A program made the translations under genes and the position numbers. A stretch of DNA of 64,000 nt from Bacteroidia bacterium. Its GTDB lineage: Bacteria > Bacteroidota > Bacteroidia > J057. The notes beneath the pieces are model-generated. The model did no database searches and had not been told where the DNA came from. It saw nothing but the letters and a program-made list of their open reading frames with translations. Shown here piece by piece: positions 23,340-54,151 of the stretch (its first letter is position 1; each line of letters starts with the position of its first letter). Where the stretch lies: contig JALEFZ010000004.1 in the NCBI GenBank assembly GCA_022760475.1, positions 1-64,000 of the forward strand, in the 5' to 3' direction.

Positions 23340-23359
23340 ACTCTTTCAAATCAAAGAAA

Positions 23360-25021
23360 ATGAAAAGAAGAAATTTTTTGAAATTGGGTGGAGCCGCGGT
23401 AGCTAGCCCTTTTGTCCTGAATGGTTTGCCTTTGCAAGCTTTTAGTACACACAACCTCGCCAATGCCATGAACTGTAGCGAGGTAAATGAGCGTGCATTG
23501 GTACTGGTACAATTGAGAGGAGGAAATGATGGGTTGAATACCATTATACCGATTGGTCAATATTCCCAATATCAGGCCTTAAGGCCCAATCTGCATATCG
23601 CAAATGCCGGAGCCAATTCCTATATAGATCTGGACCTTACCATGCCTATGGCTGATCGTGTAGGCCTTCACCCCAATATGCAGGCTGTTAAGGATATGTA
23701 TGACGATGGACTTGTTTCGATTGTTCAGTCTGTGGCCTATGTAGATCAGAACCTTTCTCATTTTAAATCCACAGACTTGTGGTTGTCAGGGGGAGATGGT
23801 ACACCTCCGAATTTCAATAAGCAAACCGGATGGATGGCGCGCTACCTGGATCATACCTATCCTGGTGTTGCCGGAAATCCCCAACCCTATATGCCAGATC
23901 CCCTTGGGATTCAATTGGGCGATCCCAAGCCGTCTTTGGGATTCCACACGGATCATGAGCATGGGGCAGGGATCAACCTGAGTGGACAGGACCCTTCAGG
24001 CTTCTACAGCCTTATTTCGGAGATCGGTGGACCACCGGTATCACCTGTGCCCAATTCTGAATATGGATCTGAACTGGATTTCATCATGAACATGGAGGCC
24101 AGCATCAGCAAATATGCCCAAAGGATCACCGAGGTTTTCGACAATGGAACGAATATGGGTACCTACCCCAACCATGACCTTGCGGATCAATTGAAAACAG
24201 TTGCAAGACTTATCAATGGAGGATGTAAAACGAAGATTTACCTGGTCAAAATTGGGGGTTTTGATACCCATGTGAATCAGGTATTAAACACTGCTTCGCA
24301 CGAAGGCTTCCATGCCGATCTTTTACTGGAACTCTCAGAATCCATCAAGGCATTTTTAGAAGACCTTAAGCTGATGCAGCTTGACAATAAAGTCTTGACA
24401 GCTACCTTCTCCGAGTTTGGGCGTAAGCCTGTTGAAAATGGTAGCCTAGGTACTGACCACGGGAGCCTTGCCCCTATGATGATATTTGGAAAAGCAGTCA
24501 TTCCAGGTGTAGTGGGTACAAATCCTGATTTTACAGGCATTCAGAATGAGCATTTCAGTAGTTTCCAATATGACTACCGACAGGTATTTACCACCCTCGT
24601 ACAGGATTGGCTGGGTGCTTCTGATGATGCGATTGAAGCTACAGAAATGAAGGAGTTTTTACCCAATAAACTTAGTATCGTAGATGCAGATCATTATGTA
24701 GATCCAGCTTGTCATATCAATCAAATTACAGGGAACGTAACCAGTTTAGAAGAAGAAAACTTTGACCCACAGGTGAAGCTATTCCCAAATCCAGCAGCTG
24801 ATGAGTTCCACATTAGTTTCCAGACCAACAAGGCTGAGCAAGTGAATGTGAAAATGTTTGATTTGCAAGGGAAGAGTATCCTGGTAAGACACCATCAGGC
24901 ATGGGCTGGGGTGAACCAGGTAGACATCGAAATCCCTCAGGTGGTAGAAGGATATTATGTGGTAAAACTGATCGGAGAGGGTGGGGCAGAGATCTTGTCC
25001 GAAAAGCTGTTGGTAAGATGA
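23360..25021 (+). CDS. DUF1501 protein with Tat-like leader and T9SS sorting domain
   Basis: 553 residues. The N-terminus MKRRNFLKLGGAAVASPFVL is a twin-arginine-type leader (RRNFLK). The DUF1501 (sulfatase/alkaline-phosphatase-like) domain covers about 45-440: VLVQLRGGNDGLNTIIPIGQY, QSVAYVDQNLSHFKSTDLW, KIGGFDTHVNQ and FSEFGRKPVENGSLGTDHGSLAPM, the last two being the conserved putative metal-site loops. The C-terminal 80 residues are a T9SS type A sorting domain (LFPNPAADEFHISFQ to VVEGYYVVKLIGEGG). Operonic with DUF1800 (20-bp gap). Confidence 0.9.
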   Translation: MKRRNFLKLGGAAVASPFVLNGLPLQAFSTHNLANAMNCSEVNERALVLVQLRGGNDGLNTIIPIGQYSQYQALRPNLHIANAGANSYIDLDLTMPMADRVGLHPNMQAVKDMYDDGLVSIVQSVAYVDQNLSHFKSTDLWLSGGDGTPPNFNKQTGWMARYLDHTYPGVAGNPQPYMPDPLGIQLGDPKPSLGFHTDHEHGAGINLSGQDPSGFYSLISEIGGPPVSPVPNSEYGSELDFIMNMEASISKYAQRITEVFDNGTNMGTYPNHDLADQLKTVARLINGGCKTKIYLVKIGGFDTHVNQVLNTASHEGFHADLLLELSESIKAFLEDLKLMQLDNKVLTATFSEFGRKPVENGSLGTDHGSLAPMMIFGKAVIPGVVGTNPDFTGIQNEHFSSFQYDYRQVFTTLVQDWLGASDDAIEATEMKEFLPNKLSIVDADHYVDPACHINQITGNVTSLEEENFDPQVKLFPNPAADEFHISFQTNKAEQVNVKMFDLQGKSILVRHHQAWAGVNQVDIEIPQVVEGYYVVKLIGEGGAEILSEKLLVR

Positions 25022-38053: not shown

Positions 38054-39100
38054 TTAGACTGCTAGTTCTTTACTCAAGGAAGATGCCCTAATCTGCAATT
38101 TGGTATCCAGCATGACATTTTTGTTTGCGTAGTCCACCTCATCTCGGGTAGCGATAATTTCTTCAAGAAGAATGGATGCCGCCTGTCTTCCCATTTGTAG
38201 GCTAGGTTGAGAAACAGAAGAAAGAGGTGGATCTACCACTTTTGAAATTTCCCAGTCGCTAAACCCGACAAGAGCAACATCCTTGGGGATGCGATAGCCC
38301 ATTTCCTTTAGGGCAATCATCGCTCCTAGTCCGACGGCATCGGTGATGGTAAAGATGCCATCACAATCAGGATGCTGGGCGAGTACCTCTTTGGCGAAGC
38401 TTTGGCCCTCCTCTATGGTAATGTGAGCGCAGTCATACAATAGGCTGTCATCGAGTGGGAGTCCATGCTTTTTAATGGCATCGATGTATCCTTGGTTCCT
38501 GTTTCTGGATGTATAGGCAGATTGGGGCCCTCTGAAGTGGGCTATTTTTTTACAACCTTGTTGAATCATATGCTCAACAGCAAGAAAGGCTCCCTTATAG
38601 TCATCAACCACAACTCGAGAAACATCATCCAGGGTAGGGGGTACCTTATCAAAAAAGACAACCGGCACATTGGATTCAAAGAAAGGCTTGAAATGATCAA
38701 AGGAATCTGTTTCGTGAGCAAGAGAAACCAGTAAGCCATCTACTCGGCTATCAAACATAGCTCGGGTATCAGCAACTTCTTTTTCAAAAGACTCGTCCGT
38801 TTGACAGAGCATTACTTTGTAGCCTGCTTCATAGGCCACTTGCATGATTCCTTTGATGACAGAGGAGAAAAAGTGATTTACAATAGAAGGAATGATAACT
38901 CCTATAATTTTGGATTCTCTTTTTCGAAGGCCAGCAGCTATGGAATTGGGCCTGTAATTCAGCTTGTTGGCTAATTCCAGTACCCGCTTTTTGGTGGCGG
39001 GACTAATGTCTGGGTAGTCCTTCAAAGCCCTTGATACTGTAGCTGTGCTAATGCCCAACTCTTGAGCTAAATCCGCCAACGTTACCTGTTTTCTACTCAT
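38054..39100 (-). CDS. LacI-family transcriptional regulator
   Basis: 348 residues. N-terminal HTH and hinge VTLADLAQELGISTATVSRALKDYPDISPATKKRVLELANKLNYRPNSIA (6-55), then a periplasmic-binding-protein-like effector domain (IIGVIIPSIVNHFFSSVIKGIMQ, VDGLLVSLAHETD, CDGIFTITDAVGLGAMIALKEMG). It is divergent from susC across 685 bp that contains a 28-bp CG-centred palindrome. The natural reading is a sugar-responsive regulator of the downstream susCD locus. Confidence 0.92.
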   Translation of the reverse strand: MSRKQVTLADLAQELGISTATVSRALKDYPDISPATKKRVLELANKLNYRPNSIAAGLRKRESKIIGVIIPSIVNHFFSSVIKGIMQVAYEAGYKVMLCQTDESFEKEVADTRAMFDSRVDGLLVSLAHETDSFDHFKPFFESNVPVVFFDKVPPTLDDVSRVVVDDYKGAFLAVEHMIQQGCKKIAHFRGPQSAYTSRNRNQGYIDAIKKHGLPLDDSLLYDCAHITIEEGQSFAKEVLAQHPDCDGIFTITDAVGLGAMIALKEMGYRIPKDVALVGFSDWEISKVVDPPLSSVSQPSLQMGRQAASILLEEIIATRDEVDYANKNVMLDTKLQIRASSLSKELAV

Positions 39101-39350: not shown

Positions 39351-39378
39351 ACGAAAAGCATAACGTAATCGTTTTCGT
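39351..39378. promoter_or_regulatory. Palindromic operator candidate for the LacI-type regulator
   Basis: A 28-bp imperfect palindrome: outer arms ACGAAAA/TTTTCGT are perfect, central AT..ACGT..AT matches, only three base pairs fail. The dyad axis falls on a C-G step (39364/39365), the hallmark of LacI-family operators. It lies between the divergent lacI-type gene and susC, about 60 bp upstream of the candidate susC promoter. No third palindrome of this size was noticed in the gap. Confidence 0.5.
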
Positions 39379-39785: not shown

Positions 39786-42767
39786 ATGAGCATCAAACTC
39801 AAATCAGTGTCGTTGCTGAAATTTCTGCTTGTCATGGGATTGACCCTGGCATTCGGATTTGTTTCTGCACAGACGACTGTAACAGGTGTTGTTACATCTG
39901 AAGATGGTACCGGTCTTGCGGGTGCCACAGTCTTGATTAAAGGGACTACTACAGGAGCCCTGACAGACAATGCTGGTAAATTCCAGTTGGGATCTGTTGG
40001 CTCTGACGCAACGCTGCTGGTATCCTTCATTGGATTCGAAACCGCAGAAGTTGCAGTGAATGGCCAGTCTAACATTACTATTGCTATGAAGCCTTCTATT
40101 TCACAGTTGGATGAAGTAGTAGTAGTAGGTTATGGAACTGTGAAGAAGAAAGACCTTACTGGTGCTGTAACCAAGGTATCTTCCAAGGACTTCAACCAAG
40201 GGGTAATGACAGCTCCTCAGCAGTTGGTTCAAGGTAAGGTAGCGGGTGTACAGGTAGTAGGTAACTCTGGTGCTCCTGGTGCTGAGACTACTTTCCGTAT
40301 TCGTGGAGCTTCTTCTGTCCGTTCTGGAAACCAGCCACTATTCGTAGTTGACGGAATTCCTTTGGATGGTAGATCTTCCAAGGCGAATATCGGTCTTCCA
40401 GGTGGTCTGAACGGTGCCCCTAACACCAACCCACTAACCTTCATCAACCCCAATGACATTGCTTCTATTGAGGTGTTGAAGGATGCATCTGCAACAGCTA
40501 TCTACGGTTCTCGTGGTGCAAATGGTGTAGTTATCATAACTACCAAATCTGCTCAGGCTGGTGCTCCTCGTATTGACTTCCAGGCGGCTGCTGGTGTATC
40601 AAGCATCCTACGTCGTCCAGAAGTTTTGGATGGAGATCAATACCGTCAGGCTCTGGCTGACTATAACCTGTCTTCAGGTGATTTTGGAGGAAATGTTGAT
40701 GCAATGGGAGAGATCCTAAGAAATGGTATCAACCAAAACTACAATTTCTCTATGACCGGTGGTACTGAGCGTGGTAACTACCGTGTATCTGCAGGTTACC
40801 TTGATCAGCAAGGTATCATTCGTAAGTCTGGATTGAGAAAGTACAATGGTGCTTTCAGAGGATCATTCAACTTCTTGAAGAATGACAGGTTGAAGCTAGA
40901 TGTAAACATCATGGCTACTCAGAATAACCAGACTTCTGCTCCTGTTTCCAACAATGCCGGTTTCCAGGGATCTTTGATCTCTCAAGCCCTACAGTGGAAC
41001 CCAACCAGACCATTGTTCAAAGAAGATGGTTCTTACGAGCTTACTGAGAGTAACTCTACTTTGAACCCAATCGCTGTATCTGATGCGACTGACTTGAACT
41101 TCTCAAACACACGTATCCTAGCGAGCATCGCTCCTACAGTGAAAATTGTTGATGGTCTTACTTATCGCTTCCAGTTCTCTGTAGATGCTAACCAGGGTAC
41201 TAGTACAGCTACGATTAAGCGTTTCATCAACCTTCAGGATGTTGAAAACCGTGGATGGGGGCAGCTTAGCTACCAGAACCTGACTTCTCAGCAGTTCACC
41301 CATACCCTGAACTACAACGCCGATCTTACTTCTTCTGTAAGCTTGAACGCCGTAGCGGGTTATGAATACTTGAACTACGACAACAAAGGATTCGGAATGG
41401 TTGCTCAGGACTTCCTTACTGACGATGCTGACTTCCGTTACATTTTCGGAAACACTACTCAGGGAACCCGTAACACATTCTCTTTTGCGGATCCTATCTT
41501 TGAATTGCAGTCTTACTTCGCTCGTGCGAACGTAAACATCAACGACAAGTACTTGGTAACTGCTACTGTACGTGCTGACGGTTCTTCTAAGTTTGGTGAA
41601 AACAACCGTTATGGTGTATTCCCTTCTTTTGCTGTTGCATGGAACATTGCTAATGAGGACTTTGTTCCTTCTACCATCAATGACTTGAAACTACGTATTG
41701 GATACGGTATTACTGGTAACCAGGAGTTCCCCGCAGGTTCTGCTCAGGAGCGTTATGGTTTTGGCCAGGAATCTATCTCACTTGTTAACGTAGCTAACCC
41801 TGACCTAAGATGGGAGTCTGTATCTACTATCAATGTTGGTGTTGACTTTGCTTTCGCTAACTCTAGAATCGTAGGTTCTATCGACTACTTTACCCGTACG
41901 ACTTCTGACCTACTATTCCAGCTTGACGCTATCCAGCCAGCACCTGCTACAAAGCTATGGGTTAACCTGGATGGTAACGTAGTAAACAGTGGTGTTGAAT
42001 TGGCATTGAATACCTTCATCATCAACAATGACAATGTTCAGTGGCAGTTGGGAGGTAACTTCTCTTACCTAACAAATGTATTCAACACTGGTAGCCAGGA
42101 AGTTCCACCAATCGAAACTGGTGAGATCAATGGACAGGGTCTATCTGGTGTACGTTCTCAGCGTCTTGCTGATGGACAGCCTCTGTATGTATTCTTCCTA
42201 CGTCAGCACGAAGGTCTGACTTCTGAAGGATTCTCTCAGTTTACTGACAATGAGACACTAGATTTCTCTGGCGATCCAAACCCTGACTTCCTATTGGGTA
42301 TCAACACTGCATTGAGTGTAGGTAAAGTTTCTTTGAGTGCAAACTTCCAGGGAGCATTCGGACACCAGATCTACAACAATACTGCTAACGCTATCTTCGT
42401 AATCGGTAACCTTGGTACTCGTAACGTATCTACGGCTCTTCTTGAAGAGACTGACTTGAACGGAAACGCTGTACAGGAAGCTCAGGCTAACCCTATCAAG
42501 GCTTCTACCCGTTACCTAGAGCCAGGTGATTACCTACGTCTTGCTAATGCTACGCTTAGCTACAACATCGGTAACATCGGTAACTCTCTAAGAAACTGTA
42601 GTGTGTATGTAACTGGTCAGAACCTGTTCATCATTACTCAGTACTCTGGATTCGACCCAGAAGTAAACACCAACAAAGCTGTTGATGGAGTACCTTCTTT
42701 CGGTATTGAATATGTACCTTACCCAACAGCTAGAAATATCTTGGTTGGTATTAACTTTGGACTTTAA
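39786..42767 (+). CDS. SusC/RagA-family TonB-dependent outer-membrane transporter
   Basis: 993 residues. Signal peptide ending VSAQ (about 29), carboxypeptidase-regulatory-like domain TVTGVVTSEDGTGLAGATVLIKG (31-105), plug domain with the RagA box and LKDASATAIYGSRGANGVVIITT (about 230-255), then a 22-strand barrel ending NILVGINFGL. It imports a nutrient, usually an oligosaccharide, with the SusD lid encoded next and energy from TonB. Codon use is strikingly biased (Arg mostly CGT, Ser TCT, Gly GGT), unlike most neighbours, which suggests very high expression. Long regulated leader upstream. Confidence 0.96.
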   Translation: MSIKLKSVSLLKFLLVMGLTLAFGFVSAQTTVTGVVTSEDGTGLAGATVLIKGTTTGALTDNAGKFQLGSVGSDATLLVSFIGFETAEVAVNGQSNITIAMKPSISQLDEVVVVGYGTVKKKDLTGAVTKVSSKDFNQGVMTAPQQLVQGKVAGVQVVGNSGAPGAETTFRIRGASSVRSGNQPLFVVDGIPLDGRSSKANIGLPGGLNGAPNTNPLTFINPNDIASIEVLKDASATAIYGSRGANGVVIITTKSAQAGAPRIDFQAAAGVSSILRRPEVLDGDQYRQALADYNLSSGDFGGNVDAMGEILRNGINQNYNFSMTGGTERGNYRVSAGYLDQQGIIRKSGLRKYNGAFRGSFNFLKNDRLKLDVNIMATQNNQTSAPVSNNAGFQGSLISQALQWNPTRPLFKEDGSYELTESNSTLNPIAVSDATDLNFSNTRILASIAPTVKIVDGLTYRFQFSVDANQGTSTATIKRFINLQDVENRGWGQLSYQNLTSQQFTHTLNYNADLTSSVSLNAVAGYEYLNYDNKGFGMVAQDFLTDDADFRYIFGNTTQGTRNTFSFADPIFELQSYFARANVNINDKYLVTATVRADGSSKFGENNRYGVFPSFAVAWNIANEDFVPSTINDLKLRIGYGITGNQEFPAGSAQERYGFGQESISLVNVANPDLRWESVSTINVGVDFAFANSRIVGSIDYFTRTTSDLLFQLDAIQPAPATKLWVNLDGNVVNSGVELALNTFIINNDNVQWQLGGNFSYLTNVFNTGSQEVPPIETGEINGQGLSGVRSQRLADGQPLYVFFLRQHEGLTSEGFSQFTDNETLDFSGDPNPDFLLGINTALSVGKVSLSANFQGAFGHQIYNNTANAIFVIGNLGTRNVSTALLEETDLNGNAVQEAQANPIKASTRYLEPGDYLRLANATLSYNIGNIGNSLRNCSVYVTGQNLFIITQYSGFDPEVNTNKAVDGVPSFGIEYVPYPTARNILVGINFGL

Positions 42768-42806
42768 TTTTGTCAGACCCAGAACAATAATAAATATAGT
42801 TTGTTA

Positions 42807-42814
42807 TATATTTG
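42807..42814 (+). promoter_or_regulatory. Lone -7 promoter-like element upstream of susD
   Basis: TATATTTG is a perfect TAnnTTTG match 55 bp before the susD ATG, but no TTG lies 19-21 nt upstream of it. It may add a weak internal promoter for susD; read-through from susC is the simpler explanation. Confidence 0.25.
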
Positions 42815-42869
42815 TTAATGTTCTTGGGTTTGCAACCTTATCATAAGAAAAAAACTCGCAAGATTAATT

Positions 42870-44402
42870 ATGAAATTTTTCAAGTCAATCCTTATCCTAA
42901 GTTTGGCTGCATTCACACTTGCTGGATGTACCCAACTGGAAGAAGCGCTTCGTCAAGATCTTGACGGAGACTCTGCAAGGACTTATCTGAACGAAAATAC
43001 AGATATCTCCTCTTTGATCCTGACTGTCTATGACAACCTGGATCTTCCTTACCAGGACCAGTCTCGTTTCTGGGCCATGCAGGAGCACACTGCTGATGAA
43101 GTAATGGGCCCCACTCGTGGACCAGACTGGGATGACAACGGTATCTGGCGTCAGCTACACAACCATACCTGGGATGCTGACCACTTGTTCATCAGAAATA
43201 CTTTTGATGAACTGCTAAGAGCTGTATTCAACGCTACCAATGTACTTGCATTTAACCCATCTGCTGCTGAGGCTGCTGAGGCTCGTTTCCTACGTGCTTT
43301 CGTAATGGCTTCTGTACTTGATGCTTGGGGGCAGGTTCCTTTCCGTGAAGCTGGAGAGTCTCTACTTGATGCTCCTCAGGTCAAAAAAGGAACTGAAGCT
43401 GCTGAATTTATCATTAGCGAAATCGATGCTATCATCGGTGATCTTCCAACTGGTGATGCGAGGGTAGCTAACCAGGATGCCGCTCAGGCGCTTAAGGCTA
43501 AAGTTCTACTGAACAAAGGCGTTTATGCCAACCGTGAGAATCCTTCTTTCGATCCTGGCGACATGGCTGCTGTTGTTACTGCTTGTGATGCGATCATCAA
43601 CTCCGGTCGTTTTTCTTTGGCTGACAACTACTTCGACAACTTTGCTCCTCGTAACACTGAGACTTCTCCTGAGATGATTTTTGTTGCTGAGAACCTCGGT
43701 GGAGAAAGGTCTGGTAACGTTCGTTCTCGTTGGTACTGTACCCTGCACTACAACCAGAATCCTTCTGGATGGAATGGCTTCTGTACCATTGCTGATTTCT
43801 ACGATACCTTTGATGAGTCTGACCCACGTACAGGTGGATCTGCTGCTGACCGTACCGAAACTGCTGGAAAAACTGGTGTTGGACACGGATTCTTGATCGG
43901 ACAGCAGGTAGACAAAGACGGAAACAACCTAGAAGACCGTAAAGGAAACCCTCTATCTTTCACCAAAGAAGTAGCTCTTACTGAAAATGGTGGTAACCTT
44001 GAGGTTACTGGGGTACGTGTTGTTAAGTATATCATCGACCTTGAGAGTGGTGATAACGTTGACAACGACTACGTATTCTTCCGTTACGCTGACGTACTTC
44101 TTATGAAGGCTGAGGCTCTTCTTCGTAGCAACGACGCTGCTGGTGCTTTAGCTCTTGTTAATGAGATCCGTGCTAAGCGTGGTGTAGCTGAGCTGTCTTC
44201 TATCGACGAGCAAGGTCTGCTTAACGAGCGTGGATACGAGCTATACTGGGAAGGACACCGTCGTCAGGACTTGATCCGCTTCGGAAAATTCCTTGACCCT
44301 TGGACAGAAAAAGGACAGTCTGGATCTGAGCGTCTATTGTTCCCAATTCCAAACACTGCTCTTGCTGTGAATCCTAACCTAGAGCAAAACCCTGGGTACT
44401 AA
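42870..44402 (+). CDS. SusD/RagB-family surface nutrient-binding lipoprotein
   Basis: 510 residues. Lipoprotein signal with Cys19 (LAAFTLAGC). SusD fold: TPR-like helices (AEAAEARFLRAFVMASVLDAWGQVPFRE near 129-156) and the C-terminal family signature YVFFRYADVLLMKAEALLRS, LLNERGYELYWEGHRRQDLIRFGKF (about 405-470), then FPIPNTALAVNPNLEQNPGY. It forms the lid on the SusC barrel and binds substrate at the surface. Codon usage shares the strong bias of susC. The gap between the two genes is 102 bp. Confidence 0.95.
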   Translation: MKFFKSILILSLAAFTLAGCTQLEEALRQDLDGDSARTYLNENTDISSLILTVYDNLDLPYQDQSRFWAMQEHTADEVMGPTRGPDWDDNGIWRQLHNHTWDADHLFIRNTFDELLRAVFNATNVLAFNPSAAEAAEARFLRAFVMASVLDAWGQVPFREAGESLLDAPQVKKGTEAAEFIISEIDAIIGDLPTGDARVANQDAAQALKAKVLLNKGVYANRENPSFDPGDMAAVVTACDAIINSGRFSLADNYFDNFAPRNTETSPEMIFVAENLGGERSGNVRSRWYCTLHYNQNPSGWNGFCTIADFYDTFDESDPRTGGSAADRTETAGKTGVGHGFLIGQQVDKDGNNLEDRKGNPLSFTKEVALTENGGNLEVTGVRVVKYIIDLESGDNVDNDYVFFRYADVLLMKAEALLRSNDAAGALALVNEIRAKRGVAELSSIDEQGLLNERGYELYWEGHRRQDLIRFGKFLDPWTEKGQSGSERLLFPIPNTALAVNPNLEQNPGY

Positions 44403-44420
44403 GATATAATTTGAAATAGT

Positions 44421-44453
44421 GAAAAAGGCTGCTCGCTTTGGGTAGCCTTTTTC
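44421..44453 (+). terminator. Terminator of the susCD unit
   Basis: GAAAAAGGCTGCT and the right arm ending AGCCTTTTTC form a stem of about 10 bp around GCTTTG, with T-rich sequence after it, 19 bp past the susD stop. It separates susCD from the genes that follow. Confidence 0.75.
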
Positions 44454-44527
44454 TTTTGATTATTTCAGCCTTTCTAATTGAGATACAAGCATTCCCTTAT
44501 TAAATTTGAAGAATAAGTTATTGGCAG

Positions 44528-44560
44528 TTTGGCCTTAACTATTTTATTGGGATATCCTTG
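44528..44560 (+). promoter_or_regulatory. Candidate promoter of the first VCBS/ASPIC gene
   Basis: TTTG (44528-44531), 21-nt spacer, TATCCTTG (44553-44560): five of six -7 positions fit the Bacteroidota consensus. Start would be near 44567, some 25 nt before the ATG, so this gene group can be expressed apart from susCD. Confidence 0.4.
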
Positions 44561-44591
44561 CAGATAAGCTCATACCGATAAACCAACACCT

Positions 44592-47500
44592 ATGAAATTC
44601 AGGTTAACCTCCTTACTGGGATTGGCAATTGTTTTGGTCGCATGTAAAACCGAATCAACTTCCAATGACATAAAAAGTAATGCCCTTTTTAGCCTCGTTT
44701 CCTCCAAACAGTCCGGCATAGCCTTCAAAAATGAAGTCAAAAACACAAAAAAATTCAACATTTTCAGTTATAGAAATTTCTACAATGGGGGAGGAGTAGG
44801 AATTGGTGATTTAAACAATGACGGCTTGAGCGATATTTATTTCACCAAAAATATGGGTTCAAATAAACTCTATCTCAACAAAGGAGACTTGGCCTTCGAG
44901 GATGTAACCGATAAGGCAGGAGTGGCTAGCGAAGATAAGTGGAGTACGGGTGTGGTCATGGTAGACGTAAATGGAGATGGCTGGCTAGATATTTATGTTT
45001 GCAATGCTGGATACCAAAAAGGAAAAGATCAAAGAAATGAGCTTTACATCAATAACAAAGACCTGACCTTTACCGAGAGCGCAGCAGATTACGGATTAGA
45101 TCAAAACGGATATACCACCCATACAGCTTTTTTCGATTATGACCTGGATGGTGACTTGGACGCATATATCCTGAATAATAGTTTCATGCCTGTTAATACC
45201 CTTAACTACAGCAATAAAAGGGAGTTATATGCTGAGGATTGGCCTGTGCGTGATTTCCTGAAAGGCGGTGGAGATAAATTATTGAAAAATGATAATGGAA
45301 AGTATGTTGATGTAACAAAAGAGGCTGGAATTTACGGCAGCTTGATTGGGTTTGGACTGGGGGTAACGGTTGGTGATGTCAATGATGACATGCTTCCCGA
45401 TCTGTATATTTCCAATGACTTTTTTGAACGAGATTACCTATATGTAAATCAGGGTGATGGTACCTTTTCAGAAGAAATTCGAGAATGGACAGGGCATATT
45501 AGCCAATTTTCTATGGGAGCAGATATGGCCGATATCAATAATGATGGGTATCCAGAAATCTTTGTGACTGACATGATGCCATACAGCGATAAGCGATTGA
45601 AGGAAACTACCCTGTTTGAATCGTACAAGTTGTACCAAGAGAAGCAGAGAAGAGATTTCTACCATCAGTATATGCACAACAGCCTTCAACTCAACAATAA
45701 AGATGAATCTTTTTCAGAAATAGCCCAATTCAGTGGGGTAGAGGCTTCAGATTGGAGTTGGGGAGCACTGATGTTTGATGCAGACAATGACGGATACCGG
45801 GACATCTATGTCTGTAACGGAGTCCTCCAAGATGTAACCAATCAGGACTTCATAGACTTTTTTGCTAATGATGTGGTACAAAAGATGGTCTTGACTGGGG
45901 AGAAAGAAGAAATGGATAGTGTAATTGCTAAAATGCCTTCAACGGCACTTGTTAATCGCTTTTTCCATAACCAGCAAGACCTCAAGTTTGAAGATAAGAG
46001 CAAGGAGTGGGGATTAGAGAAGCCCTCCTTTTCTAATGGTGCGGCATATGGTGACCTGGATAATGATGGCGATTTGGAATTGGTAGTGAATAACCTCCAG
46101 GATAAAGCCTTCCTCTTTAGGAACAACAGCCGTGAACAAGAAAATACACATTTTGTAAAGGTTAAACTATCTGCAGATGCACCCAATACCCAAGCAATTG
46201 GTGCCAAGGTTTTCGTCTATGTAAAAGGCATGATCCTGAACTTCCAACAGATTCCTTCTCGTGGATTTCAATCTTCTGTTGACCAGACAATGCTCTTTGG
46301 CCTTGGGCAAAACAGCTCAGTGGATTCGATTGCTGTACTTTGGCCTGACAAGACAAGGAGTTCTATCAGCAGCCCGGTGATTGACACCCTCTTGATATTG
46401 AACAAGTCTGATCTAGCTGCGAAGCCATTCATGGAGGGAGAATCCCGTTCTCCGAAAACCATTTTCAGAAAAAGCATATCTGAACTGGAAGCTCATGAAG
46501 AAGACAATCATGATGACTTTGCAAATGAAGGTCTTTTGATCAGAGAACTTTCCCACGAAGGTCCTGCGGTAGCCTATGCAGAGAACCAGAAAGATGGCCT
46601 TTATGTGGGAGGGGGGGCAGGGCAGGAAGCTTACATTTACAGCTTGGGTCGCAATGGTTTGCGTAAAAAAACAATCTCCCAGTTCAAAGAAGACAGTGAA
46701 TTTGAAGATACCGCCGCAGAATGGGTTGATATAGATGGAGATAAAGACCTGGACCTCATAGTAGGCTCAGGAGGTAATAACCATCCCATTGGAGATCGCT
46801 TGTTACAGGATAGGGTATATATCAACAATGGTCGTGGAAGATTTACCCGTCAGGAAGATGCCCTTCCAATCAATGGATTCAATACCTCTGTCATTGTCCC
46901 GGTAGATTTTGATAATGACGGTGACCAGGATTTGCTTATAGGAAGCAGGTCTGTACCTGGTAAATATGGTCAGCCACCGAGGTCATTTATTTACCAAAAT
47001 GATGGCAAGGGGAAATTCAAAGATGTTGCAAAACAGGTTGGGAAAGAGTTCCAAAACCTGGGGATGATTACGGATGCTAAACTTATAAACATCCTGGGAG
47101 ATGATACCCCTGAGTTATTGGTAGTGGGGGAGTGGATGGCACCCAAGGTATTCAGCATTAAAAATGGAAGGTTTGAATTGGTAAAGACTACCCTTGAGGA
47201 GTTTTCAGGTTGGTTTTATGCCATCGAGAGCGATGACATTGATGGAGATGGAGACCTGGACTTGATTCTTGGGAACAGAGGGGAGAACTTCTATTTCTCG
47301 GGAAACAAAGAAGCTCCTGCGAAATTATGGGTTAAGGACTTTGACTTTAATGGCAGCCTAGATCCTATTATAACAAAAAATATTGATGGAAGGGATATGC
47401 CACTTTCCATGAAAAAAGAACTTACTGAGCAGATTGTGAGCCTCAAAAAACAGAACTTGAAGCATAGCGATTATGCTACCAAGTCCATCCAGGATCTATT

Positions 47501-47918
47501 TGGCGATAAAGGAATAAGCCAGGCGATTGTAATGGAGGGCAATTACTTCAAATCTGCTGTTGCCATCAACAAGGGAGATGGGAATTTTGAGATGAAGGCC
47601 TTGCCTACCGAAGTGCAACTCTCTTGTGTTTGTGATATTTATTGCAAGGATCTCAATAATGATGGGAAAAATGACCTTGTCCTTGCCGGAAACTTCAGTC
47701 AGTTTGTCCCACAATACTCAAAACTGGATGGAAGCCAAGGACATGTGCTCATTAATCAAGGAGGTGGAAACTATGAAGCCTTGAATTCCAGAGAATCAGG
47801 CTTCAGTGTCAAGGAAGATGTCAAGCAATTGCTGCCACTGAAAGTCGGAAATAAGGACATCCTACTTGCATTCATCAACAATGGCAAGCCTTACAGGTTT
47901 GAATTACAAGGAAATTAA
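44592..47918 (+). CDS. FG-GAP/VCBS repeat lipoprotein with ASPIC/UnbV domain (CRTAC1-like), copy 1
   Basis: 1108 residues. Lipoprotein signal with Cys18 (AIVLVAC). Many FG-GAP/VCBS blades with Ca2+-binding DxNxDG loops: GDLNNDGLSDIYF, DVNGDGWLDIYVC, DYDLDGDLDAYI, DVNDDMLPDLYIS. An ASPIC/UnbV segment follows (AIGAKVFVYVKGMI..GFQSSVDQTMLFGLGQ..VDSIAVLWPD, about 535-590), then a second propeller. These surface proteins are common beside SusCD pairs and probably bind ligand or partner; no enzyme activity is known. About 35-40% similar by eye to the next gene, so the two are tandem paralogues. Confidence 0.9.
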   Translation: MKFRLTSLLGLAIVLVACKTESTSNDIKSNALFSLVSSKQSGIAFKNEVKNTKKFNIFSYRNFYNGGGVGIGDLNNDGLSDIYFTKNMGSNKLYLNKGDLAFEDVTDKAGVASEDKWSTGVVMVDVNGDGWLDIYVCNAGYQKGKDQRNELYINNKDLTFTESAADYGLDQNGYTTHTAFFDYDLDGDLDAYILNNSFMPVNTLNYSNKRELYAEDWPVRDFLKGGGDKLLKNDNGKYVDVTKEAGIYGSLIGFGLGVTVGDVNDDMLPDLYISNDFFERDYLYVNQGDGTFSEEIREWTGHISQFSMGADMADINNDGYPEIFVTDMMPYSDKRLKETTLFESYKLYQEKQRRDFYHQYMHNSLQLNNKDESFSEIAQFSGVEASDWSWGALMFDADNDGYRDIYVCNGVLQDVTNQDFIDFFANDVVQKMVLTGEKEEMDSVIAKMPSTALVNRFFHNQQDLKFEDKSKEWGLEKPSFSNGAAYGDLDNDGDLELVVNNLQDKAFLFRNNSREQENTHFVKVKLSADAPNTQAIGAKVFVYVKGMILNFQQIPSRGFQSSVDQTMLFGLGQNSSVDSIAVLWPDKTRSSISSPVIDTLLILNKSDLAAKPFMEGESRSPKTIFRKSISELEAHEEDNHDDFANEGLLIRELSHEGPAVAYAENQKDGLYVGGGAGQEAYIYSLGRNGLRKKTISQFKEDSEFEDTAAEWVDIDGDKDLDLIVGSGGNNHPIGDRLLQDRVYINNGRGRFTRQEDALPINGFNTSVIVPVDFDNDGDQDLLIGSRSVPGKYGQPPRSFIYQNDGKGKFKDVAKQVGKEFQNLGMITDAKLINILGDDTPELLVVGEWMAPKVFSIKNGRFELVKTTLEEFSGWFYAIESDDIDGDGDLDLILGNRGENFYFSGNKEAPAKLWVKDFDFNGSLDPIITKNIDGRDMPLSMKKELTEQIVSLKKQNLKHSDYATKSIQDLFGDKGISQAIVMEGNYFKSAVAINKGDGNFEMKALPTEVQLSCVCDIYCKDLNNDGKNDLVLAGNFSQFVPQYSKLDGSQGHVLINQGGGNYEALNSRESGFSVKEDVKQLLPLKVGNKDILLAFINNGKPYRFELQGN

Positions 47919-47920
47919 GC

Positions 47921-50900
47921 ATGGAAATCAATTATAAAAGAGGTCTTATCAATCTTTATCGTATGAATGTTTCAGCAATTCGAGTGATGACAGGATGCCT
48001 ATGGGCCCTGATGCTTGTATGGGGAGTTGGCTGTAATTCTGATGCCTTGACAGATAATAAGGCTGACCAAAGTAAATCAAAGGCAAAGGCCAGATGGGAG
48101 CTTTTGAATGCCGAGCAAACAGGCTTGAATTTCAATAACGTGTTGGACCAGACTTCCGAATTCAATGTATTCAACTACATGTATTTCTACAATGGGGGAG
48201 GACTGGCTGCCGGGGATTTCAACAATGATGGAAAGGTAGATCTTTACTTTACCTCCAACATGGGTCCCAATATGATGTTTCTGAACGAATCAGAAAATGG
48301 AGAAATCAAATTTAAGGACATCACGGAGCAAGCAGGTGTGGCTGGTCCAGGAGGATGGAAATCCGGGGTTTCAGTGGTTGACATCAATAATGATGGCATG
48401 CTTGACTTATATGTTTCCCAAATTGGTGAATACCAAACCATCAGAGGTGAGAATCAATTATTTGTATGCCAGGGTATTGAAAACGGAATCCCGGTTTACC
48501 AGAATGAGGCCTATGTATATGGCCTTAACCTAAAGGTGTTTGGAACGCAGGCGAGCTTTTTTGATTATGATCAAGATGGCGACCTGGATATGTACCAGCT
48601 CAACCATTCCCTTCACGGAAATGGTACCTTCGGACAGAAAAAGACATTTGAAAACAAAAAACACCCTGAATCAGGCGATAAACTGCTAAGGAATGACAAT
48701 GGGCGTTTTGTCGAAGTAACTGAGGAGGCAGGTATCAATAGTACAGTTATTGGCTATGGTCTTGGAGTGGCCACGGGTGATGTGAACCAGGATGGATGGC
48801 CTGACATCTACATAGGAAATGACTTCCATGAAAATGACTACCTCTACATCAATCAAAAGGATGGGACTTTCAAGGAAGTTCTGACTGAACAAATGAGGCA
48901 TACCTCAAGGTTCTCAATGGGAGTCGAAATTTCAGACTTAAATAATGACGCCCTACCTGAGATTTTTTCATTGGATATGCTACCAGAAGATCCTGCAATT
49001 CTCAAAGCTTCCTTGGGTGAGGATGCCTATGGGATTTACACCTTTAAATTGGGATATGGATACAACCACCAGTTTTCTCGAAACAATCTTCAATTGAATA
49101 ATGGCAATAATACATTTACAGAAATTGGTCTGTTCGCTGATATTTATGCCACTGACTGGTCATGGTCACCTGTCTTCATGGATTTCGATCACGATGGTTA
49201 TAAAGACCTATTCATAAGCAATGGGATTCCTAGGAGAATGAATGACATTGACTATGTGAATTTTAGAGCCAACAATGACTTGAGGTGGAAGCAAAACACC
49301 AATAACCTGGATGAAAGAGATCTGTCGATGATAGATAAGATGCCTCAGATCAAATTGAAGAATAAGTTCTTTCGCAATGAAGGTGATCTCCATTTCCAGG
49401 ACATGACTGGTATGATAAAGAACGATGCCCCTACTTATTCGAATGGGACGGTTTATGCCGATTTCGACAATGATGGGGACCTGGATATTGCAGTAAATAA
49501 CATTGAGGACGCTCCCTTTATTTACAAAAACCTTCAGGGTGATTCCAGTCAAAATACCTATTTAGACCTTAGGCTGGAAGGGACAGAAAAGAATCCATTG
49601 GCCATTGGAGCAAAGGCGATAGCTTTCAAAGGAAATCAAACCCTTGTCCAAGAGCACTACCTGGTCAAAGGGTATCAGTCTAGCCATGCTCCTGGGCTCC
49701 ATTTAGGACTGGGTAAGGCTGAGGAGGTTGATTCTGTACTTCTGATTTGGCCAGATAATAGTTACCAATCCATTCCAAAGAGTCAGTTTGGTGAAAAAAT
49801 AATTCTTAAGTATCAAAAAGGGCTGCCTGCATTTGATTACAGTACCCTGAGCTGGCCGAACAATGAGTCAATGGCTTTCGAGGATGTTACTGCAAAGGCA
49901 AACCTGAATTTCAAACATGATGAAAACCCATTTGTGGAGTTTAATAGAGAAACACTGATACCACATATGGTCTCACGAGAGGGGCCTGGCCTCGCCATTG
50001 CTGATGTAGATGGAGATGGTTACGAAGATTTCTTTGTGGGGAGTTCTAAAAGAAAGAGAAGCCAACTATTCTATCAAACCCCTAAAGGGAAATTTGTCGA
50101 AAAGACCCCTCAAGCCATTATCAATGACTCATTATGGGAAGATGTAGACGCTGCCTGGGTTGATATTGAAAATGATGGCGACCTCGATTTGGTGGTAGCT
50201 TCTGGTGGGAATGAATATTGGGGGAAAAATAAAGCCCTTAAGCAAAGGGTCTACATCAACAAAGGGAAAGGAGAGTTTGAATCCAGACTGGACATGTTCG
50301 GCGAGACCTATTTGACTGCTGCCTCTGTATTACCCTCAGACATCAATGGCGATGGATATACCGACCTGATTTTTGCAGCAAGGGCCGTACCCTGGAAGTA
50401 TGGGGTCAGCCCAGAATCGTACTTGTTCATCAATCAAAAGGATGGAAGTTTTGAAGACAAAACCTCAGATCTTGCTCCAGATCTTAGAAGGGCTGGTTTG
50501 GTGAAGAAAGGAATCTGGACAGACATTGATAAGGATGGGGACGATGACCTGATCCTAGCCTTAGAGTGGGAGAGTTTGAAGATATTCTTAAATGAAGGAG
50601 GAAAATTAAAACTCAAAAAGGTAAATGACCTTAAGGGTTGGTGGAACATGGTGCTGGCAGGAGATTTTGATGGAGATGGAGACATCGACCTGCTTGCTGG
50701 GAATACAGGTAAGAACTCTAAGTTCAAACCATCAGAAAAGGAGCCTTTGAGGCTTTATGTTGGTGATTATGATACCAATGACAAAATGGACCAACTGTTG
50801 ACCTACTACATCAATGGCAAGGAAGTTCCATTTCACAATTACACTGAGCTTACCCAGCAATTGCCTTATTTGAAGAAAAAATATCTTTATGCCAAAGACT

Positions 50901-51346
50901 TTGCCGCGGCTAGTCCTTCAGAGTTGATTGGGGCAGAAGAGTTCGCCAAAGCCCAGGTTTTGGAAGTAAATTACCTTGAAAGTGTATTCCTTGAAAATAC
51001 CGGAGACCTTGAGTTTAAAGCCCATCCTCTGCCTGATGAACTTCAGTTTTCTACAATCAATGCCGGGGAAGTTGTGGATTTGGATAATGACGGGAAAAAG
51101 GAGCTTTTGTTGGCAGGAAATTTCTATGAATGTAACATTGAGATGGGAAGGTATGATGGGAACTATGGGAATGTATTACGAATTGGACCGAACGGAACAT
51201 TCGAGAGCATGCCATTTGGAAAGCTCAATCTTGATGGGCAAGTCCGTTACCTTAAGCCTATCAAGGTGAAGGGTAAAGAATCCTTCATCCTGGCTAAAAA
51301 CAACGACTACCTTCAGTTGATCCAAGGGAAGGCCATCAAGCAATAG
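47921..51346 (+). CDS. FG-GAP/VCBS repeat lipoprotein with ASPIC/UnbV domain, copy 2
   Basis: 1141 residues from ATG 47921, 2 bp after the previous stop; the ATG at 47963 (MNVSAIRVMTGCLWALMLVWGVGC) gives a cleaner lipoprotein signal, with the acceptor Cys 24 residues later. Same domain order as the preceding gene: propeller with DFNNDGKVDLYF, DINNDGMLDLYV, DYDQDGDLDMYQ, DVNQDGWPDIYIG; ASPIC segment LAIGAKAIAFKGNQTLVQEHYLVKGYQSSHAPGLHLGLG; then a second propeller with DVDGDGYEDFFV and DIDKDGDDDLIL. Very probably co-transcribed with copy 1. Confidence 0.9.
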   Translation: MEINYKRGLINLYRMNVSAIRVMTGCLWALMLVWGVGCNSDALTDNKADQSKSKAKARWELLNAEQTGLNFNNVLDQTSEFNVFNYMYFYNGGGLAAGDFNNDGKVDLYFTSNMGPNMMFLNESENGEIKFKDITEQAGVAGPGGWKSGVSVVDINNDGMLDLYVSQIGEYQTIRGENQLFVCQGIENGIPVYQNEAYVYGLNLKVFGTQASFFDYDQDGDLDMYQLNHSLHGNGTFGQKKTFENKKHPESGDKLLRNDNGRFVEVTEEAGINSTVIGYGLGVATGDVNQDGWPDIYIGNDFHENDYLYINQKDGTFKEVLTEQMRHTSRFSMGVEISDLNNDALPEIFSLDMLPEDPAILKASLGEDAYGIYTFKLGYGYNHQFSRNNLQLNNGNNTFTEIGLFADIYATDWSWSPVFMDFDHDGYKDLFISNGIPRRMNDIDYVNFRANNDLRWKQNTNNLDERDLSMIDKMPQIKLKNKFFRNEGDLHFQDMTGMIKNDAPTYSNGTVYADFDNDGDLDIAVNNIEDAPFIYKNLQGDSSQNTYLDLRLEGTEKNPLAIGAKAIAFKGNQTLVQEHYLVKGYQSSHAPGLHLGLGKAEEVDSVLLIWPDNSYQSIPKSQFGEKIILKYQKGLPAFDYSTLSWPNNESMAFEDVTAKANLNFKHDENPFVEFNRETLIPHMVSREGPGLAIADVDGDGYEDFFVGSSKRKRSQLFYQTPKGKFVEKTPQAIINDSLWEDVDAAWVDIENDGDLDLVVASGGNEYWGKNKALKQRVYINKGKGEFESRLDMFGETYLTAASVLPSDINGDGYTDLIFAARAVPWKYGVSPESYLFINQKDGSFEDKTSDLAPDLRRAGLVKKGIWTDIDKDGDDDLILALEWESLKIFLNEGGKLKLKKVNDLKGWWNMVLAGDFDGDGDIDLLAGNTGKNSKFKPSEKEPLRLYVGDYDTNDKMDQLLTYYINGKEVPFHNYTELTQQLPYLKKKYLYAKDFAAASPSELIGAEEFAKAQVLEVNYLESVFLENTGDLEFKAHPLPDELQFSTINAGEVVDLDNDGKKELLLAGNFYECNIEMGRYDGNYGNVLRIGPNGTFESMPFGKLNLDGQVRYLKPIKVKGKESFILAKNNDYLQLIQGKAIKQ

Positions 51347-51407
51347 GCCTGAAACCTTTGCTTTTTCACCTTTCTTTGTGAAATTTGACGAATGAGAAAA
51401 AAATGAT

Positions 51408-52724
51408 ATGAAGCGAGTACTATTTTTGATTTGTGTAATGTTGGTAGGGTCTTTCCTGGGATGCAAACAGGTTGAGAGGAAGTCTGATAGTGAGTATTTC
51501 CATGACATGATGCAGCACCTGACAGATGTAATCGTTGATAACATCTTTTCCCCTCCGGCGGCAAGTCGTGTGTACACATACCCCAGTATTGCTGCGTATG
51601 AAGCCCTGCAAGCTGGCAATCCCGATTTCAAAAGCTTGGCTGGACAACTAAATGAGCTTGGTGAAACTCCCAAACCCGATACCTCTGCAGGACCAATCTA
51701 TTTTCCCTTGGCCTCTTTACAGGCATTTACGCAAGTGAGTAAGGCTTTTGTTTTTACGGAGTCGGGCATAGATACCTTCGCAAGCAAAATATTTTACGAT
51801 TATGAGCATTCAGACCTTGATCGCGGAACTGTAAAGCGAAGCAAGGCTTACGGCGATCTGGTAGCCCAGCACATCATCGACTGGTCAAACAAGGACGGCT
51901 ACAAGGAAATTAGGGGGCGTAAGCATACCCTGGGTGAAGAAGATGCCTCTTGGAAACCCACAGGTCCTGCTTACATGGAGGCCATTGAGCCTTATTGGAA
52001 TAGCCTGAGGACTTTTATTATCGACTCTGCGACCCAATTCGTACCGGCTAGGCCTACTACTTACAGCACAGATAAAAAGAGTCGATTCTTCGAAGAAATG
52101 ATGGAGGTGTATGAAACCAAAGAGCAGTTGACTGATGAGCAAGCCGAGATTGCGGCATTTTGGGATTGCAATCCTTATGTAATGAATGTAACTGGGCATG
52201 TAATGTATGCAACCAAAAAAATCACTCCCGGGGGACACTGGATTGCCATCACCAAACTTGTAAGCCAGAAGGCCGATTTGGATATGATGCATTCAGTAGA
52301 AGCATACACCAGGACATCCATCGCATTGGCTGATGCCTTTATCTCATGCTGGGACGAGAAGTATCGATCGAATTTGATTCGGCCAGAGACAGTTATCCAG
52401 GAATTGGTCGACCCTACATGGCAGCCATTGCTACAAACTCCCCCATTTCCCGAATATACCTCAGGACACTCAGTGATTTCTACAGCGGCAGCGCTTGCGC
52501 TTACCGAGTTGTTGGGAGATAATTTCGCCTTTATCGACTCTTCAGAAACTTCATATGGACTTCCATCAAGAGAATTTGACTCTTTTGTTGCGGCATCAGA
52601 GGAAGCTGCTATTAGCCGCCTGTATGGAGGTATTCACTACATGCCTGCCATCAGAAATGGCCAAAGCCAAGGAAGAAAGGTTGGAAACTTCATAAACAAA
52701 TCCTTGGTTACAAAAATAGAATAG
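51408..52724 (+). CDS. Vanadium-dependent haloperoxidase / PAP2-type phosphatase, lipoprotein
   Basis: 438 residues, lipoprotein signal with Cys18-19 (VGSFLGC). The vanadate/phosphate site is complete: K318 and R325-P326 (KYRSNLIRP), S352-G353-H354 (YTSGHS), R404 and H410 (SRLYGGIH). Spacings K to R of 7 and R to H of 6 equal those of characterised haloperoxidases. Whether it halogenates with vanadate and H2O2 or removes phosphate cannot be told from this. It lies 61 bp after the VCBS pair on the same strand; this neighbour set (SusCD, VCBS/ASPIC, haloperoxidase) recurs in Bacteroidota. Confidence 0.88.
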   Translation: MKRVLFLICVMLVGSFLGCKQVERKSDSEYFHDMMQHLTDVIVDNIFSPPAASRVYTYPSIAAYEALQAGNPDFKSLAGQLNELGETPKPDTSAGPIYFPLASLQAFTQVSKAFVFTESGIDTFASKIFYDYEHSDLDRGTVKRSKAYGDLVAQHIIDWSNKDGYKEIRGRKHTLGEEDASWKPTGPAYMEAIEPYWNSLRTFIIDSATQFVPARPTTYSTDKKSRFFEEMMEVYETKEQLTDEQAEIAAFWDCNPYVMNVTGHVMYATKKITPGGHWIAITKLVSQKADLDMMHSVEAYTRTSIALADAFISCWDEKYRSNLIRPETVIQELVDPTWQPLLQTPPFPEYTSGHSVISTAAALALTELLGDNFAFIDSSETSYGLPSREFDSFVAASEEAAISRLYGGIHYMPAIRNGQSQGRKVGNFINKSLVTKIE

Positions 52725-52748: not shown

Positions 52749-52774
52749 CCCAGTAAGGCAATATACTTACTGGG
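52749..52774. terminator. Bidirectional terminator after the haloperoxidase gene
   Basis: CCCAGTAAG (52749-52757) and CTTACTGGG (52766-52774) pair perfectly around an 8-nt loop, with A-run to the left and T-run to the right. It closes the susCD-VCBS-haloperoxidase group and also the convergent esterase transcript. Confidence 0.85.
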
Positions 52775-53698: not shown

Positions 53699-54151
53699 TT
53701 ATTTTTTGGTTCGAATCACAATAACTCCATAAGCTCCTTCTGAACCATAAAGCCCAGTTTCAGCAGGGGTTTTTAGTACGGAGATTCTGTCAATGTCGTT
53801 TGGGTTCAACAACCTCGATACCGATGCAAGGTCTCTCCCTAACCTCACTCTATCTACCACGAACAAAGGGTTGATTTGATCCATAAGGTTACCAGGAATC
53901 CCTACGATGCTTATTTTTGAACCAGATACTCTCAGGCCAGGTACGGTTCTGAGGTATTGTTCCAGGGTATTAAAGGTATTGTTTCCTTTGATTTTTGTAC
54001 CCTTGGCTGTTGAACCTGATTTGGTTTCTTTGATGTAGCCAAGGTCAACCGTTTCATCTGCTTTTGCCTTAATGGCTGTGCTGCTTGATTTACAGGAGCT
54101 TAAAGCGAGGCCGAGCAAGGCGATTATGATATAGTAGCAGTAATTTTTCAT
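53699..54151 (-). CDS. Stand-alone TonB-plug domain lipoprotein
   Basis: 150 residues. Lipobox with Cys20 (LGLALSSC). After a short linker there is only a TonB-dependent-receptor plug: TLEQYLRTVPGLRVSG (about 83-98), INPLFVVDRVRLGRDLASVSRLLNPNDIDRISVLKTPAETGLYGSEGAYGVIVIRTKK. The end matches the YGSRGANGVVIITT part of the SusC plug but no barrel follows. Such free plugs occur in Bacteroidota; here it is lipid-anchored and followed by an esterase. Function unknown. Confidence 0.82.
   Translation of the reverse strand: MKNYCYYIIIALLGLALSSCKSSSTAIKAKADETVDLGYIKETKSGSTAKGTKIKGNNTFNTLEQYLRTVPGLRVSGSKISIVGIPGNLMDQINPLFVVDRVRLGRDLASVSRLLNPNDIDRISVLKTPAETGLYGSEGAYGVIVIRTKK

Follow-up and report, generated by a model that had tools for sequence, protein, structure and literature searches.

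A SusCD gene block with two CRTAC1-like double propellers and a likely vanadium iodoperoxidase in a Bacteroidia genome

The stretch of DNA analyzed here (64,000 nucleotides of contig JALEFZ010000004.1, Bacteroidia bacterium assembly GCA_022760475.1; hereafter the window) contains a block of five genes in which a SusC–SusD (SusCD) pair is followed by two large propeller lipoproteins, A and B, and by an enzyme of the PAP2 fold. We interpret the block, with a confidence that is evenly balanced, as a SusCD system for the uptake of a probable small sugar, partnered by two CRTAC1-like double propellers and a surface vanadium iodoperoxidase. The interpretation builds on features that can be read from the sequence, namely the gene set, its conserved linkage, an intact vanadate site, the closeness of the enzyme to the Zobellia iodoperoxidase ZgVIPO1, and the lipoprotein signals. 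What we rate as new is that, in a SusCD locus, a haloperoxidase takes the position usually filled by a glycosidase. A first-pass annotation, made from the DNA letters without database searches, had already proposed a SusCD pair joined to two ASPIC propellers and a PAP2/haloperoxidase enzyme, and all of these genes proved to be in place, with domains assigned by Pfam and NCBIfam (lengths in amino acids, aa):

38054..39100, − strand: LacI-family regulator, divergent from susC (Pfam LacI 1e-12, Peripla_BP_1/3)
39786..42767, + strand: SusC/RagA TonB-linked outer-membrane transporter, 993 aa (NCBIfam TIGR04056, 686 bits, cut-off 368)
42870..44402, + strand: SusD/RagB lipoprotein, 510 aa (Pfam SusD_RagB 5.7e-31; lipobox LAGC)
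44592..47918, + strand: propeller A, FG-GAP/UnbV_ASPIC lipoprotein, 1108 aa (FG-GAP_3 in seven stretches, UnbV_ASPIC 2.4e-15; lipobox LVAC)
47921..51346, + strand: propeller B, FG-GAP/UnbV_ASPIC lipoprotein, 1141 aa (Pfam FG-GAP_3 and UnbV_ASPIC)
51408..52724, + strand: ZgVIPO1-type vanadium haloperoxidase lipoprotein, 438 aa (Pfam PAP2 1.2e-07; phmmer match to 4cit 5.8e-137; lipobox FLGC)

The block, its enzyme and its propellers

In the list of open reading frames (ORFs), SusC, SusD, propeller A, propeller B, and the enzyme follow one another on the + strand with intergenic gaps of 102, 189, 2, and 61 bases, and the lipobox pattern marks SusD, both propellers, and the enzyme as lipoproteins. 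The PDB chain closest to SusC in sequence is 8aa4_A, titled ‘SusC homolog’ (5.3e-110), the relatives of SusD include 3jys and SusD itself (3ck7), and neither the propellers nor the enzyme have an NCBIfam match. With polysaccharide utilization loci (PULs) and SusCD utilisomes the block shares the susC–susD tandem by which PULs are recognized, the lipoprotein partners, and the adjoining LacI-type regulator gene; a complex of these lipoproteins with SusCD is predicted. It differs from a classic PUL in that no glycoside hydrolase or lyase was found by Pfam or NCBIfam in the five block genes and three adjacent genes. Compared with PULs slot by slot, the haloperoxidase takes the place of the enzyme and the CRTAC1-like propellers that of the glycan-binding proteins.

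The sole strong relative of the enzyme in the PDB is 4CIT/4USZ, the Zobellia vanadium iodoperoxidase ZgVIPO1 (phmmer E 5.8e-137 over residues 17–431, 50% identity in the alignment), which we take to be the first bacterial iodide-oxidizing vanadium enzyme to have been crystallized. The first-pass annotation had described a haloperoxidase with seven vanadate-site residues; all seven (K318, R325, S352, G353, H354, R404, and H410) align with their counterparts in 4CIT (K324, R331, S358, G359, H360, R410, and H416, numbered as the chain number minus 8), the equivalents of Y263, W321, D322, and F353 of 4CIT are kept as well, and the assignment can be sharpened to the group of ZgVIPO1. When ZgvIPO1 was run as a control in another study, it had iodoperoxidase activity and no other (PMC10427571), and the residues behind halide preference are described as largely unknown (PMC13198595).

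The AlphaFold2 model of the enzyme (predicted local distance difference test, pLDDT, 79.5; weak at residues 170–193 and 254–272) places the fold nearer to haloperoxidases than to phosphatases, as 4usz/4cit are its top Foldseek matches (4usz, TMt 0.87), all 17 matches at E ≤ 0.001 are of the haloperoxidase family, and acid phosphatases begin at rank 18 (E 0.01). Two of these 17 matches are chains of NapH3, titled a vanadium haloperoxidase homologue that catalyzes a rearrangement. Two of the four further haloperoxidase-family sequences that a family profile drew from the PDB are NapH1 and NapH3; phosphatases were absent at E ≤ 0.001. The motif of PAP2 phosphatases reads KxxxxxxRP – PSGH – SRxxxxxHxxxD, and the window enzyme departs from it, keeping KYRSNLIRP and SR-LYGGI-H but having TSGH for PSGH and Ala414 for the final Asp. 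Asp stands at this position in none of 101 propeller-linked homologues vs. 11 of 61 unlinked ones (those with more than 6 kb upstream were counted), and the full set of vanadate residues is present in 94/101 and 48/61, respectively. The homologues in which at least one of these residues is absent, 7 linked and 13 unlinked, are possible non-haloperoxidase offshoots. Vanadium-iodoperoxidase chemistry is likely for the window enzyme, and a PAP2 phosphatase was rejected as the main account, given the missing Asp and a fold ranking that favors haloperoxidases.

The twin ASPIC lipoproteins of the first-pass annotation are indeed paralogous (38% identical), and both carry FG-GAP_3 repeats followed by a UnbV_ASPIC domain (Pfam), as do CRTAC1/UnbV_ASPIC proteins; calcium-type DxD/NxDG motifs number 9 in propeller A and 11 in propeller B. 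An AlphaFold2 model of propeller B, computed from a 40-sequence alignment (pLDDT 88.2, predicted template modeling score, pTM, 0.89), has a CRTAC1-like N-terminal half (residues 55–633) that superposes on murine CRTAC1 (9etn, VIA Z 36.4, root-mean-square deviation, rmsd, 2.5, 459 residues). It differs from CRTAC1 by having a second propeller (residues 649–1141) and by being a bacterial lipoprotein. Its C38 is invariant among the 40 aligned propellers and is taken as the conserved lipoprotein cysteine, while a simple pattern picks C26 first. The second propeller also resembles aldos-2-ulose dehydratase (Z 28.4, rmsd 3.1, 348 residues), but no function was assigned from this, as LGI1 scores higher and the dehydratase is missing from the profile-search matches.

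Conservation of the neighborhood

Homologues of the enzyme were found at E ≤ 1e-30 in 51 of 295 genomes of the class, and matches to 4CIT at E ≤ 1e-60 in 175 of 397 sampled genomes of family f57 (the family of genome G165). Linkage was counted within 9 kb upstream and 4 kb downstream of the enzyme in loci from named genomes (the best 80 of at least 587 relatives), from the class (89), and from f57 (20, drawn from the high-identity end of the 4CIT matches), together with 35 control loci around an unrelated ApbE gene in enzyme-bearing genomes. The controls were hand-picked from ApbE matches, leaving out three that lie beside enzyme loci (G009, G179, and G212) and several others, some of them on short contigs. 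Analyzable loci amounted to 46/80 named, 67/89 class, 20/20 f57, and 32/35 control loci, the others having been dropped because of insufficient length or because the focal gene could not be used. As there are loci that overlap on a contig, several that stem from a single genome, and possibly the same species in both collections, p values are indicative only. In two genomes of one family (G009:C6:18024-20726 and G212:C67:66845-69541), a distant haloperoxidase homologue with 35–36% identity was observed beside an ApbE-like gene.

Propeller genes accompany the enzyme in 31/46 named, 45/67 class, and 16/20 f57 loci vs. 0/32 controls, and SusC or SusD in 17/46, 28/67, and 2/20 vs. 4/32. The first-pass annotation had stated that neighborhoods of this type recur and had named, next to phosphatase activity only, the lack of a conserved linkage to SusCD as a point that would speak against it; the wide comparison of propeller linkage bears out the former, and the neighborhoods conserved in other genomes dispose of the latter. 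The low SusC/SusD count in f57 is explained, at least partly, by a SusD that lies farther away: in all seven genomes of this family with a match, the best SusD match shares contig and strand with the enzyme and precedes it by about 12 to 21 kb (this search by coordinate used one SusD, and 5 of 12 genomes gave no match at E ≤ 1e-40).

At the level of whole genomes, propellers occur in 57 of the 295 class genomes overall, in 37/37 of those with an enzyme at E ≤ 1e-85 (a cut chosen after inspection of the data, with at most two propeller candidates scored per genome), and in 40/51 of those with an enzyme at E ≤ 1e-30, while 17 propeller-bearing genomes have no enzyme at this looser cut. Close homologues of the enzyme therefore appear to need propellers, whereas propellers do not appear to need the enzyme. 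The genome of the window has two more SusCD-propeller loci, both without the enzyme, one with LacI, an aldo/keto reductase, and a luciferase-like monooxygenase, the other with GntR, a melibiase-like enzyme, SSF, and a glycerol-3-phosphate oxidoreductase nearby.

Several genomes hold paralogous SusCD-propeller-haloperoxidase modules, four each in G114, G203, and G231 and three each in G145 and G280 (loci of multi-copy modules: L134, L135, L136, L139, L140, L143, L144, L148, L151, L157–L160, and L163), some of them with short FG-GAP proteins of about 520 aa downstream of the enzyme. The distances between enzyme paralogues track those between propeller paralogues, with a correlation of 0.851 over 24 modules from 8 multi-copy genomes, a value reached by 0/5000 within-genome shuffles (mean 0.08, maximum 0.554); for enzyme and SusD the correlation is 0.797 over 30 modules, again reached by 0/5000 (mean 0.216, maximum 0.645). 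Part of this correlation is accounted for by duplication of the block, which at the same time shows that its genes move together.

The CRYSTALLISED enzyme itself lies in such a block, as a protein of genome G295, by inference Zobellia, is 99% identical to the 4CIT segment. Its locus (L250) comprises SSF on the − strand, three propellers, the enzyme, and a GyrI-like protein, with a SusD 21 kb upstream on the same strand. The window has in common with the ZgVIPO1 system the 50% identity of the enzymes, the vanadate residues, the fold, the lipoprotein-like N-terminus, and a propeller-enzyme block with an upstream SusD. It departs from that system in its propeller number (two, not three), in the LacI gene next to the block, and in the absence of SSF and GyrI-like genes beside the enzyme. 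Another comparable case, by gene content, is the iodine-accumulating Arenibacter sp. C-21: its genome has 39 proteins annotated as SusD and at least five homologues of 4USZ, and its iodine uptake depends on glucose, oxygen, and calcium (PMC5064120). Among the titles and abstracts listed in a literature search, none dealt with a haloperoxidase-propeller-SusCD linkage, nor was one reported in the available passages of the few papers that name both SusC/SusD and haloperoxidase; prior notice, as in the 2014 paper on ZgVIPO1, is possible.

Sugar genes and regulatory signals

The recurrent neighbors of the enzyme, with families named from one representative per cluster, include a glycoside hydrolase (GH) of family GH65 above the kojibiose-hydrolase cut-off (1133 vs. 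800 bits), a GH37 trehalase, a phosphotrehalase-like GH13, glycerol kinase, glycerol-3-phosphate oxidoreductase, an MIP channel, a ROK-like kinase (below cut-offs), and SSF/MFS symporters. Any sugar gene was counted near the enzyme in 30/46 named, 12/67 class, and 13/20 f57 loci vs. 2/32 controls, GH65 in 14/46, 8/67, 0/20, and 0/32, and GH37 in 10/46, 3/67, 0/20, and 0/32. GH65, GH37, and the glycerol genes lie mostly in loci titled Cytophagales and Saprospiraceae, while f57 loci have xylose isomerase (11/20) and a xylulokinase-like kinase (8/20; the one representative classified is below the XylB cut-off). Of 12 f57 genomes checked, 9 have xylose isomerase no farther than about 12 kb from the enzyme, unlike the three of genus g156. 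In genome G000, the sole near-full-length trehalase match (G000:C66:34885-36327, L212) has a TAA inside the match, yet a 569-aa ORF is present there.

As the lineages differ in their sugar genes, a single cargo (trehalose, kojibiose, glucosylglycerol, or xylose) was not settled on. A small carbohydrate seems likelier as the cargo, because some homologous loci hold sugar or glycerol genes and because a LacI gene adjoins the block in the window and in a few relatives (L112, L145, L061, L080, and L104). The first-pass annotation had argued that no glycoside hydrolase is present and that the substrate may thus not be a polysaccharide; the absence holds for the window block, while the inference is weakened by the GH65, GH37, GH13-like, xylA/xylB-like, and glycerol genes near homologues. 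Given the enzyme-free SusCD-propeller loci with sugar genes, the link to sugar may be a trait of the SusCD-propeller platform, to which the iodoperoxidase would have been added in some copies.

Three noncoding elements were considered as regulatory signals of the block:

39351..39378, LacI–susC gap: candidate operator, imperfect inverted repeat ACGAAAAGCATAAC/GTAATCGTTTTCGT (79% complementary, one of 16 pairs)
44421..44453, + strand, susD–propeller A gap: terminator-like hairpin, 15-pair stem and T-rich tail (−21 kcal/mol, z −5.45)
52749..52774, + strand, 3′ of the enzyme gene: terminator-like hairpin (−15.6 kcal/mol, z −4.69)

The LacI gene is likewise divergent from SusC in L112, from a genome of the same family. 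In five loci titled Saprospiraceae or Saprospirales (L061, L070, L080, L090, and L104) the haloperoxidase is divergent from SusC-SusD-propeller, and in three of them (L061, L080, and L104) LacI lies in between, directly upstream of the enzyme. The 12-mer TAATCGTTTTCG occurs also in the LacI–SusC gap of L104 and is absent from the other gaps compared; a LacI operator at 39351–39378 is, on the strength of this shared 12-mer, a lead only.

Terminator-like sites in the region are no more numerous than in shuffles (11 vs. 11.1), so only the folding strength of the hairpins carries weight. The hairpin behind the enzyme gene is likely to be the end of the transcription unit. The one behind susD, a possible attenuation or processing site, would fit a higher level of susCD mRNA than of downstream mRNA. 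Among relatives, T-tailed hairpins were found in 28/33 susD–propeller gaps, 0/33 susC–susD gaps, 1/48 propeller–propeller gaps, and 6/48 propeller–enzyme gaps, but the other gap classes are no valid control, as the scan skipped gaps of 30 bases or less and most propeller–propeller and propeller–enzyme gaps are that short.

Elsewhere in the window, a putative esterase (PF00756, 52803–53690) is convergent to the block and neighbors a 150-aa protein that is hardly more than a SusC-type plug domain (53699–54151), a 913-aa protein at 54884–57625 has no Pfam match at E ≤ 0.001, and tandem DUF1800 and DUF1501 genes, the second of which carries a type IX secretion tail, lie at 21723–25021.

Proposed function and alternatives

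In the mechanism that we propose, a sugar would act via LacI, the presumed controller of the block, upon which susCD and then, past the hairpin, the propellers and the enzyme would be made. SusD, the propellers, and the enzyme would be located on the outer membrane, with the enzyme tethered beside SusCD and the propellers, and SusC would import the sugar. The enzyme would bind vanadate and, with hydrogen peroxide (H2O2) met at the feeding site, convert iodide to hypoiodous acid during sugar uptake. Peroxide removal, iodine gain, attack on neighbors, and oxidation of food compete as pay-offs, and we favor as the purpose a surface peroxide-to-hypoiodite converter that would be induced together with sugar uptake. 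In Zobellia, one such enzyme, vIPO3, was upregulated on Ascophyllum vs. alginate (PMC9296495), which fits a use on algae and does not choose among these pay-offs.

Several observations weigh against this interpretation. The association with sugar genes is weak in the even class sample (12/67 vs. 2/32, p 0.22), the sugar families were selected after the loci had been inspected, and no sugar enzyme adjoins the window block, the two GH65 genes and the trehalase genes of this genome lying elsewhere. LacI falls inside the counted span in just 3/46 named loci and in none of the class or f57 loci. The looser cut leaves 11 of 51 enzyme genomes without a propeller, at least one vanadate residue is absent in 7 of the 101 propeller-linked homologues, and congruent distances can also arise when a physical block is duplicated as a whole, with no working complex behind them. 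Furthermore, a scan of 94 unlabelled neighbors (of 128 picked) gave 168 Pfam families, and the 25 commonest of these include no H2O2-making enzyme.

This last result bears equally on a sugar-fuelled iodine accumulation, in which the sugar imported or split by the locus would feed an H2O2-making sugar oxidase elsewhere in the cell and the hypoiodous acid made by the enzyme would enter the cell, as has been proposed for Arenibacter C-21. The calcium-type motifs of the propellers, 9 and 11, would agree with it; no oxidase, however, was among those 25 commonest families, and homologues occur in metagenome-assembled genomes titled groundwater or pond (L079 and L064), where a gain from iodine is less obvious, and we regard this account as doubtful. 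It is quite improbable that the enzyme is a passenger, riding along for defense or against peroxide stress with no tie to the cargo, while SusCD and the propellers form the working unit: the platform does exist without the enzyme, in two loci of the window genome and in 17 propeller-bearing genomes, but every one of the 37 genomes with a close enzyme homologue also has a propeller, and the enzyme, propeller, and SusD paralogues co-diversify. A slightly poorer chance is given to a PAP2-type phosphatase that would dephosphorylate a sugar or glycerol compound ahead of import by SusCD. The superfamily fold is shared, apo-chloroperoxidase is able to dephosphorylate (title of structure 3bb0, among the Foldseek matches), and some loci hold glycerol kinase, glycerol-3-phosphate oxidoreductase, and an MIP channel; against this stand the 17 haloperoxidase-family matches ahead of the first phosphatase, the Asp of the PAP2 motif, which is Ala in the window enzyme and found in no propeller-linked homologue, and 4CIT, the nearest characterized relative, which is an iodoperoxidase.

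A more far-reaching version of the proposed SusCD-propeller-iodoperoxidase system, which we offer as an unlikely but consequential one, is an ‘oxidative utilisome’, in which the iodoperoxidase would be the catalytic subunit of the SusCD-propeller complex in the slot of the glycosidase. Hypoiodite made beside the transporter would oxidize the food itself or an aglycone or tannin that protects it, and the released sugar would be imported. If this were true, bacterial iodide oxidation would be a feeding reaction that is widespread in Bacteroidota.

The vanadium iodoperoxidases of Bacteroidota are already known as enzymes and structures, and a conserved uptake module gives them a testable context, by which the question of why Bacteroidota oxidize iodide becomes directly testable. 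The frequency of 4CIT matches in f57 may, in addition, bear on the cycling of iodine in the environment.

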